From NCBI GenBank assembly GCA_903813345.2, contig CAIIXF020000004.1, forward strand, positions 18,585,513 through 18,649,512: a stretch of DNA of 64,000 nucleotides, in the 5' to 3' direction. The DNA is from Owenia fusiformis. Taxonomy: Eukaryota > Annelida > Polychaeta > Sabellida > Oweniidae. Positions 1,645-45,262 of the stretch are shown one piece after another. The notes beneath the pieces are model-generated. The model did not search any database. It was not told where the DNA came from and saw only the letters and a program-made list of their open reading frames with translations. Position numbers and translations under genes: made by a program. How positions within the stretch are numbered: the first letter of the stretch is position 1; every line of letters begins with the position of its first letter.

Positions 1645-2807
1645 GCCCATTTTTCATAATTCTTCTCATTTTTTTTAAATCTCAGGTGGGTGCTGCACCC
1701 ACTTTATTGCTTTAATGCCAGGGAGATCACTGCATTGTCCGGAAGTCTTTCTTTTAACATTCCTTTTATAACGAATAATCCCTTTACCCATGTAGCGCAG
1801 TCAGATGTCCCTTTGGTAGTTCGACTTTTTCAGGAAAGCAACAAACTTGGCACAGTTGTAGAAACATATGATCTGAATGAAAAATGATTTCGGGGCAATT
1901 GAATCGGGGTGGTCTTCATGGATTTTAAGCCTCTGACCGCCACCCCTATCAGGCGGGGAGGGGGTACATTATAATAAAATAAATAAAAATAGTTGTAAAG
2001 TATATTTCTTTAAATGACTTCATTTGGTCATTGCTTTGAGCCTTGAAATTGAGAAAAACCTATTTTAGAAGTGGTGTTTAGGAAGGAAAATACATTTTAA
2101 CCCAATTATCTAGCGTGAATTCATCTTTCAAAGGGTCAAATATAGGACATCAAGTACTGTATTTCAAGAATGTGATGTCTGATCATCCTGAAAAAATTCA
2201 TACTAATAGAGATATTGATGTTAATCACTCATATGATATATGGCTAATGTAGCTCATGTATTTTTTGAGAAATAAATTATCGAAATTTGGATATTTAAGC
2301 CCTTGCGGCCTAGGGGTGACCTTATTTTACCTTAATAATTTTTAAGATACATGATGTTTGGGCCTCATATGAATTCTAAATGTTGCAATAAGTAATGTTT
2401 TGTCATATTATTCCTAATTAGATGTAAAAAAAATTATTGAAAATAAAAAAAAATCAAATTTTCATTTTCGGTTCTAAAAGGCCAGGGGTTACCATATTTT
2501 ACCCTAATAATTTGCCAGATATGTAATATATGCATCTCAAATTAGCTCAAGATGTTGCATATAGTTCTGTTTTATCATACTTCTTCCAATAAGATGTAGA
2601 AAATGATCGGATATATCTAAAAAATCAAAATTTTCACTTAAGCTCTTGATGGCCCTGGGGTAACCTTATTTTACCTTAATAATTTTCTAAATATGAGACA
2701 TAGTCACCTCAGATGAGCTTAAGATGGTATATTTAGTCCTGTTTTATCATATCAGTCCCAAGGAGTGAAAAAATGATTGGAAATTATAAGAAAATTACAT
2801 TTTCATA

Positions 2808-3045
2808 TTACACCCCCAATCCGCAACATCTTCCTGCAGCGCTGTAAACAGTACTGAACAGTGCAGTCAGAGTACTGCACTATATAGCAATGTACAATGC
2901 TATTCTAACACCATCTGTTTTGGACAGCGTAGTACAGTACTGTTTTTACAGCTCAGTACTGTTTTAGAAAACAGCTGTGTACAGTACTGTTTTTACAGCA
3001 CTGTTTATGAAACCATGCTGTTTGATGCAGTTTGAGATTGGTAGT
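2808..3045. mobile_element. Small palindrome-rich MITE inside the foldback left arm
   Basis: It lies between subrepeat monomers. The ends are CCAATC at about 2816 and GATTGG at 3036-3041, with wider similarity (ACAC..CCAATC against its complement). The interior is full of ACAGTACTGT-type palindromes: AGTACTG, GTACAGTACTG and CAGTACTG recur about eight times. The corresponding place in the right arm lacks it, so it is a separate insertion or a later expansion. Confidence 0.5.
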
Positions 3046-3214
3046 GTAGTTTATGATAGGTCAGGAATGACCTAATTTTACCTTAAACATTTAAACAAAG
3101 ACATATCATATTGTCTACTCAAATGAGCTCAAAATAGTGAATATAGTCTAGTTTTGTCATATTATTCCTACTGAGATATACAATAATGATTAACAGTTAT
3201 AAAAAATGAACCTC

Positions 3215-4293
3215 AACAGCCATTTATTCCTTTCTAGTACCAATGGCAATACTATCTAGTTTTATAGAACATTTTCTAAGATGTGAAAATGTTTGATAAG
3301 TCCAGTTCATACTAGCACGAGTAGTAGCATTGTTAAGATTCTGTATATTATCATTTGAGTATATAATCCAAATCTATAAAACCTAATCAAAGGAGTCACA
3401 ATTTATGGATTCTGACAGTCTCTCCTACAGCTACATAGCTCAGAGCAAATCAGATCTGCTTTCAAACATTTGCATCTGTTCTCTTGACACAGGTATCTAC
3501 CCCATGACCTACATTTTATGTTGTGGCCTCAGTATCAGCAGTGGGAGTAGGCCAGCCACATTCATGTGGTGATAGAAACTGTGGCTAAGAATGCATTAGA
3601 ATGAATAAGGACTCTAGTCTTCTAATTTTAGGGTATCAAAAAAGATTTAAAGCTTTAGAACACTTGCGTAACCTCTGGGTACACCTTCTATTCCTGCAAA
3701 TCCAGTTTTGTGCTGTTTGTATCTATGCTCATTAACATCAAAGTTGAATGACTAAGCTACATAGTAGATGCCAAAATAATAGACAGGGCATGTATAGTTA
3801 AACATGCTAACAGTGATATATAAAGAAAATTGGGTGATTATGCAAATATGATATTACCCCACGTAAAAGTCTGCAAATAGTGCATTGCCTTGATGTCAGC
3901 TGGAATGTTTACCAGGACACTAGCTTAAAGGGGCAACAAGGTCTCTGTAGAAGATTCAATTTTTTTACTTTTTCTGAGCTATCAGGGTAATATTTGGCTA
4001 AACATCTTCTTTGACATACCTATTCTCTTAAAATGTATGGATAAACTATCAATTTTAGCATTAAGAAGTGTAAATTCAGTTCAAAGCTTCTATAAAGGGA
4101 GGCCCACTTATAGATTTTTAAGATCCAAAACATTTCAAGAGGAATCAGCTGAAATAATGTTCATCCAGGGGGTTTCTTTGGAAAAAAATAAACATATATG
4201 TTAGTCTTGATGAAATATCCAAACTTGAATATATTTTGACACTGGTCCATGATCGTTGAATGGCCCCTTTGCACTAATTGTTGCACCTTTAAA
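3215..4293. other. Central region of the foldback element, no gene recognised
   Basis: This is AT-rich sequence between the left arm and the decayed EEAD-motif frame. No open frame of useful length and no recognisable domain was found. It may hold the decayed N-terminal part of the same protein, but I could not align anything to known motifs. Confidence 0.4.
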
Positions 4294-4735
4294 ACAGCAC
4301 TAGAGAGACTTGTGGAACTGGAACAAGGATAGTCTAAGGAGGGAACTGAAACCATTGAAATGGATGGAAAGGAGATAATGACCACATAAATTAAGGAGGC
4401 AATGCAATGTTTTAGCCCAACAGTGAGGTTCTGCCCTTGCTCTTAAGAAGAAGCAGATTCAAGGATATTTCTCAATATTTTCAGTAAGACTGCTTCAATC
4501 ATGGCCTTCAAGAGAAAGAATAATACTCCTTACATTTAATTCTGATGTGGTTATGCTGATATGGTAAGGGAGAAATTCTATCAATATCTACCTGCCCATG
4601 GCCAAAGTTTAACCCTCCCCATTTTTCATACAATCATTGGATGTGATGTTACATCTGTATTCTACTGCTATTGGTAGTGCTAAAATGGAATAAATGGATT
4701 GAGATTTAAATGTGTCACTGAGTTTTCTAATTGTT
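4294..4735 (+). pseudogene. Decayed EEAD/DVV/GCD-motif protein remnant, possibly PIN/FEN1-like nuclease
   Basis: Frame 1 reads ALERLVELEQG, stop, then on to a stop and EEADSRIFLNIF at 4447-4482. The next block, ILLTFNSDVVMLIW, is in another frame at about 4527-4570. Frame 1 then resumes with LTLPIFHTIIGCDVTSVF to about 4665. From memory, these three ordered blocks match a family of uncharacterised, transposon-associated invertebrate proteins with EEADTR, DTDVVVL and LPxFHxxTGCDTTS motifs. The acidic spacing resembles FEN1/XPG-like PIN nucleases (EAE, DxD, GxD), but that link is inference. At least three in-frame stops and two frameshifts show it is dead. It is centred in the foldback element, suggesting it may derive from that element. 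Confidence 0.5.
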
Positions 4736-4895
4736 GTTAATCATTATCTCAGTAGGAATAAAGTGAAAAACAGACTATTTTCCCCATTTTGAGATCATTT
4801 TATCTTGAAAATTAATAACATTTGGCATTCTTGTGCCCAATCATTGACTGTCATTATTCACTGACAGAATCCTTGACAGAAGCAGCTCACCTTAA

Positions 4896-4912
4896 CCCCC
4901 CCCCCCCCCCCC
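4896..4912 (+). repeat. Poly(C) tract, 17 C
   Basis: This is an uninterrupted homopolymer in otherwise AT-rich DNA. Shorter C or G runs recur at 5450-5459, 46674-46686, about 57662-57673 and within 60415-60470, several of them at or inside transposon ends or hairpin loops. Confidence 0.9.
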
Positions 4913-5168
4913 ATCAGGCTAAGGTGACTGGACTTACTACCCTTTGCATTCATTCGACTTTCCTTCTCAAAAGAGAGCGTCGTCTTCACTCTATCAGTTT
5001 TCAATAAATCACTGAACTCACTGCACTAATCAGAGTTTGTTGTCGAAATAAGGACGGCTTTCTATATGGTCATTTTCTCTGACGAAATCGCATCATTAAT
5101 GTACACGCATTTAGCACTTCTTCCTTCAAGCTCGCTGATTGGTTGAGAATAGGTCAGCATGGTTTATT

Positions 5169-5205
5169 GCAGCTTGGGTCATAAATGCTTTAAGACCCAA
5201 GCTGC
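5169..5205. repeat. Perfect 12-bp stem-loop
   Basis: GCAGCTTGGGTC (5169-5180) and its exact complement (5194-5205) flank a 13-nt AT-rich loop. It lies inside the foldback element just before the right arm. It does not match the histone mRNA stem-loop consensus. Confidence 0.7.
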
Positions 5206-6330
5206 CAATGGCATTGGTCATGGGGACGGGGCTGCTAAACTCACTCCATCCTTTGCTTCTATATTATGGTAATATATGATAAAATCACCTCTGATCTGTC
5301 AAAAGCTAAAGATGTCATTTTTCAAATTTCCATTATTTTTTACATCTCCTAAGGAATAATATGACAAAACAAGAGTATATGACACAATTTTAAGCTCATT
5401 TGAGATGCATACGTCTCATAATTAAGAAAAGTTCAAGATTAAATAAGCCCCCCCCCCCAGGCCATCATAAGCTAAAATGAAAATTTCAAATTTTAAGAAA
5501 TGTCCAATCATTTTCTACATCTTATTGGAGGTATTATGATTAAACAGAACTATATGCACCATCTTGAGCTAATTTGAAATACATATATTACAAACCTTGA
5601 AAGTTATCAAGGTAAAATATGGTTACCCCTGGCCTTTCAGAAGCGATAATGAAATTTTTTTTTTTTTGAAAAGTTCCAATCATTTTTCGATCCAATTAGG
5701 AATAATATGACAAAACAAGACTCAATGCACCATTTTGAGCTCATATGAGACCCATACATTGCATATCTTAAAAATTATTAAGGTAGAATAAGGTTACCCC
5801 TAGGCCGCAAGGGCTTAAAAATTCAATTTTCGATAATTTTTATCTCAAAAAATACATGAGCTACCCAAGCCATATTCTATATTTGTGATGAACACCTATA
5901 CCCCTATTAGTATGATTTTTTCCAAGATGATCAGACATCACATTCTTGAAATACAGTACTTGATGTCCCATATTTGACCCTTTAAAATATGAATTCACGC
6001 TAGATAATTGGGTCAAAATGTATTTTCCTCACTAAACACCACTTCTACAATCGGTTTGTCTCAATTTCAAGGCTCAGAGCAATCACCAAATGAAGTCATT
6101 TAAAAAAATTTACTTCAAAACCATTTTTATTTATTTTTTATAATGTACCCCCTCCCCGCCTGATAGGGGTTGGGGTCAGAGACTAAAAAATCCATGAAGA
6201 CCACTCCGGATCACTTGCCCCGAAATCATTTTCCACTCAGATCAAGTGTTTCTACAACTGTGCCAAGTTTGTTGCTTTCCTGAAAAAGTCGAACTATAAA
6301 GGGCTCATTTCTGGACATCTGACTGCGCTA

Positions 6331-6900
6331 ATGAAGGAATTTTTCAGTTGATACAGATTACATGTGCGTTTGAGCATAATTCAAAGGTTTGCGTGAGACT
6401 CCACTCCCCCCACGTGGGAAGGGGTATAGGTTTTGACAAAATAGAAATTGGGCTGTCAAATTCAAATCATGGGAGTAACCTAGTGAGTCAATTTCCCCAC
6501 CTTGGGAGCAATAATAGCAAGTCAAATATTGTGGAAATTCCTATTATAAACAATAAACTTTCGAAAGTCTATACTCTCAGGACAGAGAACAACATAAGAT
6601 CCCACCCCTGGAACAATACTGTTTGTTACATTCCTGACCCTTACGTCACCATGCAAGAAATTTGAACTGAAACCTTTGAAGAGTGCATACTATTTGAGAC
6701 TGTATCATGTTCATGATCACTACAAAAATTCTAATTATGTCAAACTTTACATTTGCACTCTATATTCATAGGCCATTCTTAGCATATGTACATTATTTTC
6801 TTTCAGCCAGTTGGTCTTAATGCAAAAAAACAAGAGTTAAATTCCCATCTTCTGGGTCTATATATAAACATTGAAAGAGGCTTTTGACCCATGAAATTTT
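6331..6900. other. Unassigned interval
   Basis: A 105-codon open frame (6348-6665, +) begins with a non-ATG-supported context and has no recognisable domain, signal peptide or repeat. Nothing else in the interval is supported. It sits directly outside the right arm of the foldback element and could be flanking host DNA. Confidence 0.3.
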
Positions 6901-19586: not shown

Positions 19587-19958
19587 TTCTACTAAAAAAC
19601 ATGTTGCTTAACCTCCAGATTAACCTCCCTAATGTATCAAATTGGTTTACATGGGAAATTAAGTTCTCCGGGGTTTAAAACTGTCATCAATTTCTAACCT
19701 CTCACGTATACTGTGGCATACGTTTGAGTAGAATATCATAATCTTTACCTACTAGTATTTCCGAAGCCGGTCGATCTTTTGTATAAGATTCATAGAGTGA
19801 TATTCACTGATAAGTATTCTGATTCTAGTGATAACATCTGAACATGGCGACAACTCCAAGTTATTGCATCGCAGACGGAGTGAGTCACAAAACAGAATAT
19901 ACTACATTGTTATGCGGTAAACCCGAAACAAATCTATATCATATTCCGCAACAAATAT
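19587..19958. other. Unique lead-in to the 44-bp array, with a diverged relative at 48.8-48.9 kb
   Basis: The segment 19890-19958 (GCGGTAAACCCGAAACAAAT... ATTCCGCAACAAATATGGC) matches, in inverted orientation, the stretch at about 48826-48895. The 60-codon frame starting at 19844 runs into the satellite and shows no domain. Confidence 0.5.
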
Positions 19959-21548
19959 GGCAAATTCAATTGCTGTGTATGAAAGATTCGTCTGCGGTAT
20001 ATGGCATACTCACTTGCTGTGTTTGAAAGATTCATCTGCGGCATATGGCATACTCACTTGCGGTGTATGAAAGATTCACCTGTAGTATATGGCATACTCA
20101 CTTGCGGTGTATGAAAGATTCATCTGCGGTATATGGCATACTCACTTGCGGTGTATGAAAGATTCACCTGCAGTATATGGCATACTCACTTGCGGTGTAT
20201 GAAAGATTCATCTGCGGTATATGGCATACTCACTTGCGGTGTATGAAAGATCTATCTGCGGTATATGACATACTCACTTACTGTGAATGAAAGATTCATC
20301 TGCGGTATATGGCATACTCACTTGAGGTGTATGAAAGATTCATCTGCGGTATATGGCTTACTCACTTGAGGTGTATGAAAGATTCATCTGCGGTATATGG
20401 CATACTCACTTGAGGTGTATGAAAGATGCATCTGCGGAATATGGCATACTCACTTGAGGTGTATGAAAGATTCATCTGCGGTATATGGCATACTCACTTG
20501 CGGTGTATGAAAGATTCATCTGCGGTATATGGCATACTCACTTAAGGTATATGAACGATTCAACTGCGGTATATGGCATACTCACTTGAGGTGTATGAAA
20601 GATTCATCTGCGGTATATGGCATACTCACCAGCGGTGTATGAAAGATTCATTTGCGGTATATGACATACTCACTTACTGTGTATGAAAGATTCATCTGCG
20701 GTGTATGGCATACTCACTTGAGGTGTATGAAAGATTCATCTGCGGTATATAGCATACTCACTTGAGGTGTATGAAAGATTCATCTGCGGTATATGGCTTA
20801 CTCACTTGAGGTGTATGAAAGATTCATCTGCGGTATATGGCATACTCACTTGAGGTGTATGAAAGATTCATCTGCGGTATATGACATACTCACTTGAGGT
20901 GTATGAAAGATTCATCTGCGGTATATGGCATACTCACTTGCGGTGTATGAAAGATTCATCTGCGGTATATGGCATACTCACTTGCTGTGTATGAAGGATT
21001 CGTCTGCGGTATATGGCATACTCACTTGAGGTGTATGAAAGATTCACCTGCGGTATATGGCATACTCACTTGAGGTGTATGAAAGATTCATCTGCGGTAT
21101 ATGGCATACTCACTTGAGGTGTATGAAAGATTCATCTGCTGTATATGGCATACTCACTTGAGTTGTATGAAAGATTCATCTGCGGTATATGGCATACTCA
21201 CTTGAGGTGTATGAAAGATTCATCTGCTGTATATGGCATACTCACTTGAGTTGTATGAAAGATTTATCTGCGGTATATGGCATACTCACTTGCGGTTTAT
21301 GAAAGATTCATCTGCGGTATATGGCTTACTCACTTGAGGTGTATGAAAGATTCATCTGCCGTATATGGCATTCTCACTTGAGGTGTATGAAAGATTAATC
21401 TGCGGTATATGGCATACTCACTTGCGGTGTATGAAAAATTCATCTGCGGTATATGGCATACTCACTTGATGTGTATGAAAGATTCATCTGCCGTATATGG
21501 CATACTCACTTGAGGTGTATGAAAGATTCATCTGCGGTATATGGCATA
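19959..21548 (+). repeat. 44-bp minisatellite array, about 36 copies
   Basis: The unit GGCATACTCACTTGAGGTGT followed by ATGAAAGATTCATCTGCGGT and ATAT repeats with almost no length change for about 1,590 bp. Sub-variants differ at a few fixed places: TTGAGGT, TTGCGGT or TTGCTGT; TTCATCTG or TTCACCTG; GGCATAC or GGCTTAC. These recur in clusters, suggesting local unequal exchange. At 44 bp the unit is not a multiple of three, so no long frame crosses it and it is non-coding. Confidence 0.95.
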
Positions 21549-24500
21549 CATTCACGAATCAATGTGAACAGCGGTCTAAATAATCAAGATGTGATCTATG
21601 TCCAGTTTAAACTATTAAATCTAATTACAGAATCCAATGTTCAATAATCAAAATGCTCTGCACCATTAGGATTGATATACGTACTGAGTGTCCCAAAGAA
21701 TTGTACACAAATTAAACGGGAAATTTGGCATTTCAGATGATATGCTCGAGATAACCAATAGCGAGTTGTAGAATGCAGTTGCGTATGTGATGGTGCTAAA
21801 ACAATGTATCCGTCAGATAACTAAATTTCAAAATATTCCTTCATCAATCAGAGTTATTTCATGTTTGTCTTAGTACAATTTGAAAAACAAAACAAAATTA
21901 CGTTTTTTCTAAAACGAGAAAGAGTTAACAAACTTTTAAAATATTTTTTCATCATTTTTGGACATCCTGTTCATTCACTCTAGTACGTACTCATCATATG
22001 AGATACAATTGGAGGGTATTACTTTACAATTGATGGGTATTACCATGGTATATCATTCATGATGAGATTTTTCTTAAAATGACATTTTTAAGAGCTTATA
22101 AAAACTAAATCTGTTATCTTTGACATGTTCCCAATTGATGTAACAGCTTCAGTTCGATTAATCCAAGCTGCAATATTACACCATAAAAACCAAAAAATAT
22201 CAGTATCATACTTTTTGAAGTCGTATTATTATTGCATAAGGTGATGATATTGTCAGATTGTATGCTGTTTTAGAAGTGAAAAATGCATGCCGTTTGTTTC
22301 CAATCCAATAAAACGCATAGTTGAGATAAAACAGTTGTTTAAAGATACAATTTGAATTTACCGCAGTAAATTACGAAATGATATTGTCAAAATGTCAATA
22401 ATTCCTGGCCGATGTCACATATAAATATATATATACACCGATATGTTTTATTTCCTCATGTATGTGAAACAAGGCGGCCTCTAGTTATTTATATCCTATG
22501 CAAATATGGAATTATGTGCAGGAGAAGTATAATATTTTTGAAAATAATCGAAAAAGAATCATGCAGATAATTTGATTTCTTTTTCGTATCACTTCTTATC
22601 CGTTTCACATTTACGTATGAATCTTTCTAACATTATAGATCTAATCATGGACATCTGAAGCATCATTGCACCAAGTTACACACCAGCACAAGGCAAATAA
22701 AGAGGAGAACTTCCAGAAACAAACTTGCTGCTTGTCCGACATAGTCTTTACCGTCTCGTCTTTACCAGCGCCATTCGATACGATCACTAATCATGGGGTG
22801 AATGAGCAGATTATATCTTTATTTGATGCCCAATTCAGTGTACGTATATGACAGTTCTTATATTAGGTAAACGTTTTTAGAAACAGATGCTTTTTTCAAA
22901 AATCTCGTATATTAACTTCAAAGAACATATGCACAAAACTGAATCAACCACACGGACCGAATCTTTTCGCTAAAATAAACTACAACCCACCAAAACATAA
23001 CATGGACTGTACGCACAAGATGGTTCTGAGTTGCATGACGTCTTTTATCATCATGATTTGACTGCTAACGCAAGAACAAGGGTTCTTTTGACATATAATT
23101 GAAGTGATGACAAGTCATGTACGATGTGCTATTCCTTTGAGACTGATACCGTCAACATTCCATCTTTAATTTTAAGGTCGTCTAAGCTACATTCAGGTAG
23201 AGATAACTTGCACTAAGATTTGGAAACAATTTATTGAATGAGCTTCGCTATGCGTTTCAATGTAATCTAACAAAGTTGATAAAACACTTTTAAACACATT
23301 TTTTTATTGAAAATGGGATCTAACAGACCCCAAAGGTAAATTATAAACGCCGCTTAAACCCAGGGAAAACGTAAACTAACGCTATTTAATCGCTAACTCA
23401 TCAAAAACGGCTTTAAACCATGAGATGCGGCGGCATGGTGAATTTTTGTTTCGCGACTCAAAACGAGGCTGATATAGAAACAGTGATCGATCAGACGTTT
23501 TGAAACGTATATATTATATACACCTTTTATATATGGAATAAAAAATAACATCACACTATTTTCTTATGATATGATTTTTAGGCACGGGTGAGAGTATTAT
23601 ATCATTACGAGTGAGCGTATATTTATTAGTATAGACATAGTATTACATAATATTTTCCTGTTGAGGAGATTAAAAATTGAAGAAAAAATTATTGATAATC
23701 GGAAAAATTAATTGCATTCAATATGCATATAAAATGGATGCATTTCTTCCTTATGTTCATGGAAATAATCTTATTAATCAATCCTCTACATATTGATGCA
23801 ATACAGGTCAATGTGGGATGAATGGTTTATACATAGACTGACTTTTTCACAAGTGAATCATTCGCATTTGTATGCAGAAGTAATAAAACAACATCACATT
23901 AAAACAAGAATGGGAAAGATAAGACCAATCTTACTAGACAGCGGAAACGCCAAGAATCTAATCAAACATCAATGACGCAACTTTAAAATGCCTGTCATAT
24001 TTCAAATTGATAACTACAATATACTTGGTCAGGAAAATTGTCAAAATAATATATCACGCTGTTATATATTTGATTGTAAAATATATAATAATTGAGTCGC
24101 CCTCGTCCTTTTAGAATGGATTATTAATCGAAATGGATGTCGTACATATCGTTTCTCTGGAGAAACTTTTTTTAAATAAAAACAAATTCAAAAATATTAA
24201 ATGAGGTAAAAATTGACCCAGTTCGGATATCATTAAACGTGGCATCGGACAGAGGTCTATCCATTTTACTTCAAGTTTCTGCGATGGACAAATAATATGA
24301 ATATTTTGTGTATTTTTAAGTGAGATACATATGTTCTCTTCTAATCCAAATAAATTACAAACAAATTAAAATCTACGTGGTTTATCTTTATCGCACTTGC
24401 ATGTAAAATATGCGCTAAACTGAACGGACGGATATATCTATCACAACTACAAAACCTGTTCGATGGGGATGTCATATCGTAGATATCCATCATAGTACAC

Positions 24501-27231: not shown

Positions 27232-28341
27232 CTATACCTCAGTCTGTTCCGTGGTCACTCCATTGTGAGAGTGAAATGTATTTGTAGGTGCATTAATGTA
27301 CTCTTGCGGGATACACGGAAATGTACGTCTATATGCCAAACGGATGTCTTTAGTGCGCAAACTGTAAATAATCGGATCGGACATAAAATTAAAATACGGC
27401 AAGTAGCATATAAAGTTATGGTATGCTGCGATAAGTGCTTCGTTATACTGTGCGAATCGTACTATCTTTACGATGGCATAAGGCATACTCGACACAACTA
27501 AAGTCGACATGAGAATGACAGTCGTGATGAACGCCCCATAGTTGTCACGCGCTTGGTTCCTTGACACGGCGCTTGCGCGTCTTTGAAGCAAACGTTTAGA
27601 TACCGTGCTATACAACGAGATAACACAAAGGAATATAATAATCACAACAGCTGGCCAGACATAGTTCCAGTATTTAAATTCCAAGTTCGTCTGCAGGTTT
27701 TGCTTTATTATACTCAGTCCAAATATTCCCGGAATAGCCACAATACCCGAACCAATCCATGATATCCCCATGCATTCACACACTCGCACTTTAGTAAATA
27801 GTACGTTGTACTTCATCGGAAATTTGATAGCGATGAAACGCATGATTGCGAAAATAAGTAACGTAAGTGAAGCTTCTATGTAGAAGAAAGCAAAGCCTGT
27901 GTATCCAATGACCACTACGTCATTATAGTGGCCCCAATTGCTGATAACGTCCCAATGAAGGCCAGCTCTAAATACAGTCTCTAAATACGTGGACAAGGTT
28001 CCCAATAGATCTGCTATAGATAAATTGATGAATAGCAAATGATTGACACTCATAGTTCCAGGTATGTTGTATATTGTTACTATGGCAATAACGTTGGCTG
28101 CGACCGATGAAGCACAAAGTAAACTTGATATGATTGTGAACGGTATCACCTCCTCATCTGTTTCCATCTTCAAAGGAATAATTTGTCTGTGGCTTTCGTT
28201 AATAACACGGAATGTGTTGTTTATAACGTAAGAGGCGTCTATATGGGTCGAACCATTCATATTTACCATCATTTTTGAATGTACTTTCAATACTTCCACC
28301 AAAATCAGTAATGCGAAGACAGCCACGCGTCCTGAACTCAT
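27232..28341 (-). CDS. Intronless class A GPCR, MECA-like (melanocortin/EDG/cannabinoid group) orphan
   Basis: The frame encodes 369 residues from the ATG at 28341. An in-frame TTG ten codons upstream is not a likely start, and this ATG begins a good signal peptide (residues 1-22). The extracellular N-terminus has three N-glycosylation sequons (N29, N41, N48). Seven membrane segments lie near 65-92, 99-124, 142-170, 188-210, 228-250, 268-296 and 306-328. Class A marks include N83, LSIAD with D111, R168, W195, P287 and DPIIY (322-326), followed by a helix-8 segment and Cys343. DRY is MRF (167-169), CWxP is SSMP (284-287), the TM3 cysteine and its loop partner are absent, and TM5 lacks its central proline. 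Missing TM3 Cys and TM5 Pro are MECA-group traits, and DPIIYSLRTKDIRLAYRR resembles MC/cannabinoid tails. The ligand is unknown. Confidence 0.9.
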   Translation of the reverse strand: MSSGRVAVFALLILVEVLKVHSKMMVNMNGSTHIDASYVINNTFRVINESHRQIIPLKMETDEEVIPFTIISSLLCASSVAANVIAIVTIYNIPGTMSVNHLLFINLSIADLLGTLSTYLETVFRAGLHWDVISNWGHYNDVVVIGYTGFAFFYIEASLTLLIFAIMRFIAIKFPMKYNVLFTKVRVCECMGISWIGSGIVAIPGIFGLSIIKQNLQTNLEFKYWNYVWPAVVIIIFLCVISLYSTVSKRLLQRRASAVSRNQARDNYGAFITTVILMSTLVVSSMPYAIVKIVRFAQYNEALIAAYHNFICYLPYFNFMSDPIIYSLRTKDIRLAYRRTFPCIPQEYINAPTNTFHSHNGVTTEQTEV

Positions 28342-29039
28342 GCTTCTAGGGTTCAAAGATGTCAAAGTCAATAAAGAGTCTAGAGAATGATATTTTAATG
28401 CGGCGACTGGCAGTTTAATCTCTTTTATTGTCTAAGAATGTTCTCTTGTTTTCAGATAAGATGTCTTGACTTGTTTGATCATATTGAATCTCTGTTGATC
28501 GAAACTGAACGAGTCACAATGGGCACTGGTAACAGTTACTCAACACGCCACGGGTCCAGTTGAAATATTCCAGTATATAAGGACGAGCCTTGCTCCCTTT
28601 ACAACAACACAATTTCACATACAGCTGTTCAACTTAACTCGCAAAACGAATCAGTAAATCCAGATTTTTGAATAGGGTTCTTAATCATTCCCGTCGCATT
28701 TTCTACTGTCAAATGCTAATCAAAAATTATAAAGTTGATGAGCTCACGTTTCGACGGGCTGATATGTTGTTTCCTCAGTCACATCCCAACTTCCTACATG
28801 ACTCTGGTGGATGAATGGACTACAATCGATTCTAGATGATCATAGTCGGCTAGCGCTCAGATTATAACCATCTTGGGAACCAAATCGTTTACAGAACCTG
28901 GTCGATGCGTCTTCTTTAATCTCCAATAGTTTAATCGATAAAGCTGAAAATACATTAAATAAGTAAATATAAAAGTGTGCTATCATGATTCTTAATAATA
29001 CTTGAAGAGGAGTAGGGAACCCTGTATTTTACCTAGGAA
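28342..29039. other. Upstream region of the GPCR
   Basis: No gene is seen. A TATATAA word at 28574-28580 lies about 235 bp upstream of the receptor ATG and is the only TATA-like candidate. Because TATATA is self-complementary it could serve either strand. Confidence 0.4.
28574..28580 (-). promoter_or_regulatory. TATA-like word upstream of the GPCR
   Basis: CAGTATATAAGG on the plus strand reads CCTTATATACTG on the minus strand. If used for the receptor gene, transcription would start near 28545 and leave a ~200-nt 5' UTR without an intron. There is no further support in the sequence. Confidence 0.2.
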
Positions 29040-30249: not shown

Positions 30250-31034
30250 CTCTCTCCAAATGATAACTGCAAGTCCTGGACACATAGCTTCATTCTTAAC
30301 ACATTCTTCTTTCCCAATGGCAATGCAAGCCAACCCTGGGGCACAAAGCTAAATTCTTAACACATATTTCTTTCCCCAATGGCGATGCAAGCCAGCCCTG
30401 GGACACAAAGCTATATTTTTAACACATATTTCTTTCCCAATGACAATGCAAGCCAGCCCTGGGACACAAAGCTATATTTTTAACACATATTTCTTTCCCC
30501 AATGGTAATGCAAGCCAACCCTGGGGCACAAAGCTAAATTCTTAACACATATTTCTTTCCCAATGACAATGCAAGCCAGCCATGGGACACAAAGCTATAT
30601 TTTTAACACATATTTCTTTCCCCAATGGTAATGCAAGCCAGCCATGGGACACAAAGCAATATTCTTAACACATATTTCTTTCCCCAATGGTAATGCAAGC
30701 CAGCCATGGGACACAAAGCTATATTCTTAACACATATTTCTTTACCAATGGTAATGCAAGCCAGCCATGGGACACAAAGCTATATTCTTAACACATATTG
30801 CTTTCCCAATGGTAATACAAGCCAACCCTGGGACACAAAGCTATATTCTTAACACATTCTTCTTTCCCAATGGCAATGCAAGCCAGCCCTGGGACATAAA
30901 GCTATATTCTTAACACATATTGCTTTCCCAATGGTAGTGCAAGCCAGCCATGGGACACAAAGCTATATTCTTAACACACATTTCATTCCCAATGATAATG
31001 CAAGCCCTGGGGCACATAGTTTCACAATTAACGC
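30250..31034 (+). repeat. ~60-bp minisatellite, about 13 copies
   Basis: The unit AATGGCAATGCAAGCCAGCC followed by CTGGGACACAAAGCTATATT and CTTAACACATATTTCTTTCCC repeats from about 30250 to 31034, with units of 59-61 bp. Both end units are more diverged (GATAACTGCAAGTCCTGGAC at the start), as is normal for minisatellite edges. There is no open frame and no coding sign. Confidence 0.93.
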
Positions 31035-34432: not shown

Positions 34433-35186
34433 TAAGGTGCTATGGAAGTTAACAGGAAATGACAAAACAAAAAATGTCAAAACCATGCTGGATTTTGAAA
34501 AAAAATTGAATCAAGATAACAGAGTTCTGTTTGGACCTCCAGTCAGTTTAACTAGTTCAACATATTAACATGACCGGGAACACAAGGAAAATGGTCAGAA
34601 TGACCATAAACATGATGAAATAACCTTTTCAGCCCTCTGAAAATGTGACTGAAAAATAGCTAAGAGTAGGTGCTCAGGAAGGTCACTGAACAGAATCTTT
34701 CGACTTTTTCAGAACACGTGCCCAATATATTACTCTAAATGATACAATTTTAAAAGATTTCATATCATTCTCAGAAAAAGAAAAAAATGAAAAAAAATGA
34801 ATTTAAAATCGATCTATTTTCCTTTTAACTACAGCCATTATTGTTTCAGACAATTTTTAAAAATTTCAAAGATTGTATCATTTAGAGCAACATATTAGAC
34901 ACATTTTCTGAAAAAATCAAGAGATTCTGTTCATTGACCTTCCTGAGCACCTACTTTTAGCTATTTTTCAGTCACATTTTCAGAGGGCTGAAAAGGTTAT
35001 TTCATCATGTTTATGGTCATTCTGACCATTTTCCTTGTGTTCCCGGTCATGTTAATATGTTGAACTAGTTAAACTGACTGGAGGTCCAAACAGAACTCTG
35101 TTATCTTGGTTCAAAAAAATTTCAGAATCCAGCATGGTTTTGACATTTTTGGTTTTGTCATTTCTGTTAACTTCCATAGCACCTTA
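34433..35186. mobile_element. Near-perfect 754-bp foldback element, ~340-bp arms
   Basis: AAGGTGCTATGGAAGTTAAC at the left end (34433) is mirrored at the right end (to 35186). Pairing continues inward through GACATTTTTxGTTTTGTCA, AACAGAGTTCTGTTTGGACC, AACATGACCGGGAACACAAG and CAGCCCTCTGAAAATGTGAC to about 34770/34850, leaving a loop of roughly 80 bp. Both outer edges read TTAA (TTAAGGTGC and GCACCTTAA), so a TTAA or TA duplication is possible. A more decayed relative lies at about 35935-36215. Confidence 0.9.
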
Positions 35187-39483: not shown

Positions 39484-40690
39484 TAACTTTCCAAAAGCTG
39501 ATTAATGAGTAGATTATCTGTTGTAAACTTCAAAAATATCAAAATCTAATATTTTTGTTGACCCCTGTTAAACCCCTCAATAATAAGTAAACGGTAATGT
39601 TGACAGGTCCTCAACAGGTGAAAATGTATGTGGTAATATATGTTTTATCATTTAAACATATCAAAATAATTGGCAGATCAACAAAAAAACAAGATGATGT
39701 TAAAAAAAGTGAACTAAAAGGAACCATTATTTTCAATCATTTTGAATGCAAAATATAATCAGACAAATGATCTTTTTTTCAATTAAACAGATAAAATCTA
39801 TAGGTCATGCTAATAAGCTTCCCAAAAACGGATTCATAAGTAGATAATCCGTTGTAACCTTCAAGAATATCAAAATCTAATATTTTTTGTGGACCCCTGT
39901 CAAACCCCTCAATAATAAGTAAATGGTAATGTTGACAAGTGCTCAACATGTGAAAACGTATGTAGGAATATATACGTTTAAACATATCAAAACAATTGGC
40001 AGATCAACAAAAACAAGATGATGTTAAAAGAAAGTGAACTAAATGGAACAATTAATTTTAATCATTTTAAATGCAAAATATAGTCAGACAGGTGATCTTA
40101 TTTTCAATTAAACAGATAAAATCAATATGTCATGCTAATAACCTTCCCAAAAACGGATTCATAAGTAGATAATCCGTTGTAACCTTCGAGAATATCAAAA
40201 TCTAGTATTTTTTATTTTTTTGTGGACCCCTGTCAAACCCCTCAATAATAAGTAAATGGTAATGTTGACAAGTGCTCAACATGTGAAAACGTATGTAGGA
40301 ATATATGTTTTATCATTTTAAGATATCAAAACAATTGGCAGATCAACAAATAACAAGATGATGTTAAAGAAAGTGAACTTAATGGAACAATTATTTTAAA
40401 TCATTTTGAATGCAAAATATAATCAGACAGACGATCTTATTTACAATTAAACAGATAAAATCAATATGTCATGCTAATAACCTTCCCAAAAACCAATTCA
40501 TAAGTAGATAATCCGTTGTAAACTTCAAAAATATCAAAATCTGATATTTTAAAATTTTTGTGGACCCCTGTTAAACCACTCAATAATAAGTAAACGGTAA
40601 TGTTGACGAGTGCTCAACAAGTGAAAACGTATGCAGGAATATGTGTTTTATCATTTAAACTCATCAAAACGATTGCTTGGTTCTTCAAAA
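39484..40690 (+). repeat. Tandem ~331-bp monomers, second block, about 3.7 copies
   Basis: CAATAATAAGTAAA marks occur near 39578, 39910, 40240 and 40580, giving spacings of about 332, 331 and 340 bp. Later copies carry small insertions (TTTTTTATTTTT near 40207). The frame at 39779-39985 is a repeat by-product. Confidence 0.9.
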
Positions 40691-44731: not shown

Positions 44732-45262
44732 ATCTTACACAATTGTTTATAGGCTTTTGATATAGCGCTACATGACCTGTGATTTTTCACTGTAATGTTA
44801 CATACTTGTTTATAGGCCTGTGATATAGCACTACAGGGCCTGTAATTTTTCATCGTAATCTTACATATTTGTTTATAGGCCTGTGATATAGCACTACAGG
44901 GCCTGTAATTTTTCACTGTAATCTTACAAACTTGTTTATAGGCCTGTAATATAGCAGTTTGTGACCTGTGATTTTTCACTGTTATCTTACATATTTGTCT
45001 ATAGGCCTGTGATATAGCACTACATGGCCTGTGATTTTTCATAGTAATCTTACATTCTTGTTTATAGGCCTGTAATATAGCAGTTTGTGGCCTGTGATTT
45101 TTCACTGTTATCTTACATATTTGTCTATAGGCCTGTGATATAGCACAACATGGCCTGTGATTTTTTCACTGTAATCTTACATATTTGTCTATAGGCATGC
45201 AGTAAAGCAGTTCATGACATGTGAATTGTCACTGTTATCTTATCTTTGTTTATAGGCCTTAC
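44732..45262 (-). repeat. 63-bp minisatellite, about 8 copies, open in one minus frame
   Basis: The unit is built on TTATAGGCCTGTGATATAGC, ACTACAGGGCCTGTGATTTT and TCACTGTAATCTTACAT. Most copies are exactly 63 bp, so a minus-strand frame at 44707-45105 (132 residues) reads as a 21-residue repeat: CSAISQAYKQVCKITVKNHR and close variants. Two unit types (QTAILQ and CSAISQ) partly alternate. An extra T near 45165 breaks the frame in the upstream copies. No signal, domain or known repeat family was recognised, so I call it a minisatellite. Confidence 0.85.

Follow-up and report, generated by a model that had tools for sequence, protein, structure and literature searches.

The question raised by this locus is whether a palindromic element that carries the remains of a nuclease-like protein belongs to a new class of mobile DNA, as the preliminary description had proposed, or to a kind that is already known. 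The window (the whole 64-kb stretch of Owenia fusiformis DNA that was analysed) contains an element which is very probably a member of a non-autonomous foldback family derived from AcademX-type DNA transposons. What appears to be new is the foldback variant, inside what is apparently a described kind of transposon, AcademX, and not the kind itself.

The foldback element recognised earlier is real, and its limits are base-exact, being the start and end points of copies elsewhere in the genome (Table 1). The two arms are inverted repeats with 84% identity over 1,031 aligned bases (E=0), flanked by ATG target site duplications (TSDs), and are built, as had been described, of subrepeats of about 170 bp, whose spacing is 171-175 bp in the left and the right arm alike. 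A partial further copy of the subrepeat is found near 3054, beside the left-arm set. The structure is thus of the foldback class, with long inverted arms, internal repeats, and transposon TSDs. The part absent at the deletion junction is the one that holds the inverted nuclease relic in most copies. Adjoining the left arm, positions 2815-3020 of the window are rich in ACAGTACTGT palindromic words.

Table 1. Features of the foldback element in the window and of an intact-looking coding relative.
Feature	Position	Strand	Remarks
Complete non-autonomous foldback transposon copy, 4,538 bp	1793..6330		Both boundaries common to 7 other full copies
TSD ATG, left	1790..1792		
TSD ATG, right	6331..6333		
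Left terminus TAGCGCAGTCAGATGTCC	1793..1810	+	18 bp, perfect
Right terminus, TAGCGCAGTCAGATGTCC inverted	6313..6330	-	18 bp, perfect
Left arm, ~1 kb	1793..2803	+	Inverted match to 5309-6330
Right arm, ~1 kb	5309..6330	-	Inverted match to 1793-2803
Three ~172-bp subrepeats, left arm (2275, 2447, 2619)	2275..2751	+	
~171-175-bp subrepeats, right arm	5318..5801	-	
Inner palindrome segment	3121..3251	+	Pairs with 4663-4800, 71%
Inner palindrome partner	4663..4800	-	Pairs with 3121-3251, 71%
Relic of the same gene's C-terminal cysteine-rich (CXC) tail, inverted	3415..3489	-	
Deletion junction, 7-bp microhomology	3701..3707		~467 bp absent relative to most copies
Relic of the parent gene's nuclease-like domain, several frames and stops	4363..4665	+	tblastn to L055 protein
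EEAD motif	4447..4458	+	
SDVV motif (family D-[TS]-D-[VI]-V)	4541..4552	+	
GCDVTS motif (family TG[CS]DTTS)	4639..4656	+	
Intact-looking relative (L056 frames), 7,570 bp	C7:18949411-18956980		TIR TAGCGAGATCAATAGTGCAAA both ends; TSD AAT

Elsewhere in the window there is a second, short foldback (34456-35164; 305-bp arms, 92% complementary, 99 bp apart), a 399-aa open frame on the minus strand with the look, by eye, of a rhodopsin-type seven-helix receptor (27232-28431), and tandem arrays at 19955-21549, 30278-31006, 39487-40675, and 44732-45259, with units of 44, 61, 339, and 63 bp, respectively, and matches of 83-92%.

The search of the genome (498 Mb) with the arm probe gave 275 first-look candidates and at least 40 copies at 97-99% identity, while the 18-bp end pattern occurs 215 times and its reversed control not once. 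Complete copies could be recovered in this way, as the preliminary description had suggested; seven further ones were found, all with both boundaries (5.02-5.05 kb in four of the seven, 4.6 kb in one, and 5.8 kb in two). Perfect 3-bp TSDs flank all eight full copies, and those of the seven others read CTA, TTA, TTT, ATA, CGA, AGG, and TAA, which shows that the target is not fixed. A given arm varies by about 2% from copy to copy, whereas the left and the right arm differ by 16%, both within and between copies. With arms 98% alike between copies and 84% alike between left and right, this is an old dimer that was amplified recently and whose arms have escaped homogenisation. Decay has gone further in the inner palindrome (67-70%) than in the arms (84%), which selection on the arms as sites of the transposase could explain.

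The dead frame with EEAD, SDVV, and GCDVTS, which had been noticed in the centre of the element, is a true remnant of a gene. Residues 659-780 of an intact protein encoded elsewhere in the genome (L055) match the relic with an E-value of 2.6e-7 in the 64-kb window, and EEAD, D-S-D-V, and GCD sit on conserved motif columns of the intact family; the three motifs are therefore not due to chance. They correspond to the last three of five ordered acidic motif groups that are conserved in that family. EEAD and GCDVTS are read in one frame and SDVV in another, with stops in between. The CXC relic (56% over 25 aa) has an E-value of 0.012 in the window and of 0.001-0.01 in other copies, and is weak when taken on its own. 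A relic of the transposase was not detectable in the window copy. Searches of Pfam, NCBIfam, and PDB sequences with the relic gave no nuclease match, the scan of viral contigs found no relatives, and the literature search on the motif strings returned nothing relevant. The read-through relic, when searched against the genome, retrieved many copies in which the relic is broken in the same way, stops recurring at identical positions, and also weaker matches in the open frames of other elements. The longest open frame does not exceed 105 aa in any of the eight full copies and none is coding; an intact central frame is thus missing from all of them. As the stops are shared and no long frame is present in the eight copies, the founder of the foldback family was most likely already non-coding, i.e. 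dead before it spread.

Intact proteins of this kind had been considered as a possibility between such arms. None is present there among the matches listed; rather, they reside in relatives that are longer than the foldback copies and have short terminal inverted repeats (TIRs). The transposon-borne family to which the relic belongs has hundreds of candidates in the genome, with TIRs and TSDs, and its open members yield intact frames of 1,602 aa (L057), 955 aa (L055), 870 + 592 aa (L056), and 984 + 465 aa (L058). The proteins of these four loci share a nuclease-like domain with conserved DG-, VxD, EAD, D.D, and TG.D motifs. Upstream of it the relatives show a DN[LIV]D / DQ.L / GG.H / D...E pattern, in a region that may be a DDE-type core, and their tail holds a CXC-like cysteine-rich segment with a weak match to PF03638. 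PF20231 (DUF6589) matches the DDE-like region of L055 weakly (E 0.0019) and is above the cut-off at C3:3010745-3011491, directly upstream of a nuclease-like domain and on the same strand. Apart from this weak DUF6589, Pfam and NCBIfam searches with the intact proteins gave no named domain, and the PDB sequence search gave no relative. The longest of the frames is uninterrupted and joins the DDE-like and nuclease-like parts (C8:34911000-34920900; 4190-8995 of L057, minus strand), with no TIR seen in the 9.9 kb read; it may represent either a domesticated gene or an element without introns. DUF6589 is also found in uninterrupted frames of 1,952-2,641 aa at C11:14708020, C3:26995943, C5:17848263, C11:19954101, and C1:55249787, which are possibly AcademH-type elements.

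The intact-looking relative of Table 1 has open stretches of 592, 82, and 870 aa and bears the gene in full, with a DDE-like domain, a FEN1/XPG-motif domain, and a CXC tail. It shares the TAGCG terminus and the 3-bp TSD with the foldback elements. Likewise, the copies of a second, 5'-truncated coding family end in ...ATCCCGCTA (CGCTA) in 11 of 12 cases, followed by unrelated flanks, the exception being L052 with CGACA. The TAGCG terminus common to the coding relatives is a putative recognition site of the transposase. No coding element with exact TAGCGNNRTCAGATGTCC ends occurred among the matches listed (about half of the 215 termini), and the long end-to-end pairs (C4:31414538-31423481, C5:3551807-3561061, C5:27015979-27023696, and others) contained no DDE or intact nuclease match among those listed. 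Candidate termini around L055 were judged to be chance. A third type of end, TAGCGGAGTCAGATGTCC, is seen at seven sites (e.g. C1:974728 and C10:24960122) and was in no case seen paired with itself.

Of the likeness to FEN1-type nucleases, the motif order held, with DGA and VxD of the intact relatives at the positions expected for FEN1; the profile score was marginal, being reached by 0.5-4% of shuffles. The FEN1 profile was built from 49 archaeal FEN1 proteins, for which a FEN1 query sequence was used solely to fetch real archaeal genes. The comparison of the family with it by hhalign gave a probability of 0.4-1.2% and an E-value of 0.04-0.15. The optimal alignment lies in the FEN1 register, with VxD on VFDG, EAD on EAQ, D.D on DYD, and GCDTTS..G.SK on GTDY..GIG.K, and at a lower threshold DGA was aligned on IDA. 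Column shuffles reached the hhalign score in 2/200 and 1/200 trials, and in 1-4/100 with other master sequences. In contrast to this agreement in the order of acidic motifs, neither the relic nor the intact proteins matched Pfam XPG or PDB chains significantly at the sequence level, and the XPG_I model, when run on the genome, found other genes only and not the relic family. Kinship of the nuclease-like domain with FEN1/XPG appears likely from the motif order and these marginal scores, and nuclease activity of the family is putative. The X of AcademX refers to XPG.

The plan of the 5-kb copies points to the way in which arms and centre came together. There, tblastn detects the forward relic, as in the window, and on the opposite side an inverted nuclease relic, then the inverted CXC relic; in both, the 3' end of the gene points outward. 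The self-comparison of the L021 DNA shows the palindrome running inward in a colinear manner (1306-1462/3515-3355 and 1896-2282/3381-3021). A sister foldback family (L034, L036, and L037), with ends TAGCGGGRTCAGATGTCC and 3-bp TSDs in 3/3 copies (TTA, TTG, and AAT), has the same two-relic plan with gene 3' ends outward. The simplest account is that the 3' half of a parent was dimerised in inverted orientation and later decayed, which explains the inverted arms of about 1 kb together with the two opposed nuclease relics. Near one terminus, DDE matches occur in both orientations (C10:5224132 + and C10:5225651 -), which suggests inverted dimers elsewhere too.

The likely course of events would begin with an ancestral AcademX-type copy from whose gene the 5' half disappeared. 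The remaining 3' half would have become an inverted dimer, with the 3' terminal region of the parent and the 3' end of the gene at both ends, facing outward, and the coding relics would then have decayed while the arms persisted. AcademX-type relatives may provide the transposase in trans; this enzyme would recognise the arms, cleave at TAGCG...CGCTA, and integrate the element through 3-bp staggered cuts. The subrepeats of the arms could serve as extra binding sites, as similar TIR subrepeats of Galileo have been proposed to be secondary transposase sites (PMC3573991).

The assignment to AcademX is inferred from the TSD length and the nuclease-like domain. According to PMC10045372, where AcademX of the Academ superfamily is cited from Kojima 2020, TSDs are 3-4 bp in AcademX and 9-10 bp in AcademH, and these lengths are tied to the nuclease and the helicase, respectively. 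Window family, sister family, and the coding element on C7 all have 3-bp TSDs. AcademH, though of the same superfamily according to that source, thus differs in its 9-10-bp TSD and its helicase. With AcademX, the relatives of the window element have in common the nuclease-like and DDE-like domains, the 3-bp TSDs, and the TIRs; the window family differs in being non-autonomous, with subrepeat arms of about 1 kb and only decayed 3' parts of the gene. As a transposase-like domain, a nuclease-like domain, and 3-bp TSDs match AcademX as described (PMC10045372), the element probably does not represent a new class, and the earlier remark that no superfamily was known to be described with such a combination does not hold. 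It is nevertheless conceivable, if improbable, that the DDE-plus-nuclease elements form a separate, undescribed superfamily resembling AcademX, of which the window element is a foldback derivative: the proteins are named by no Pfam or NCBIfam domain except the weak DUF6589 and have no PDB relative by sequence. However, AcademX is characterised in print by its nuclease and its 3-4-bp TSD (PMC10045372), and the genome contains DUF6589 proteins whose open frames measure 1,900-2,600 aa, which is what the presence of AcademH would lead one to expect. About as doubtful is a DDE-plus-FEN1-like-nuclease lineage distinct from AcademX which has repeatedly given rise to successful foldback families when its nuclease-bearing 3' half was duplicated in inverted orientation, perhaps through the action of its own nuclease on hairpin intermediates.

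The central frame could also have come from outside. A foldback of another superfamily with 3-bp TSDs, which are known in Harbinger, Zator, and CACTA as well, might hold a nested AcademX gene fragment, and no transposase with exactly these arms is among the matches listed; but the TAGCG terminus and the TSD length are common to the coding relatives, and the relic stands twice, symmetrically within the palindrome, an arrangement that would not result from a nested insertion, so that this origin is quite unlikely. The capture of a FEN1-like repair gene of the host by an unrelated foldback element, to which the resemblance of the acidic motifs to FEN1 might lead, is the least probable and was rejected: the family that the relic matches is carried by transposons, with TIRs and TSDs and with hundreds of candidates, the relic is common to two foldback families, and the XPG_I genes of the host are located elsewhere and do not match it.

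The probable derivation from AcademX-type transposons brings the foldback architecture to a superfamily with which, in the literature consulted, it is not commonly connected, and the inverted dimer of one end offers a clear route to foldback arms. As one genome holds both an intact-looking DDE-plus-nuclease element and the foldbacks derived from this type, the roles of the nuclease and the subrepeats are directly testable. Foldback structure arises in unrelated superfamilies (PMC3169594). Galileo of Drosophila (P superfamily; PMC3573991) and Tm1 of nematodes (Mutator; PMC3169594) resemble the window element in their long inverted arms, internal direct repeats, and many non-autonomous copies; Galileo F, for example, has units of ~210 bp and TIRs of 0.9-1.26 kb (PMC3573991). 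Both belong to another transposase superfamily and have another TSD, whereas the arms described here are part of a 3' gene half that was dimerised in inverted orientation.
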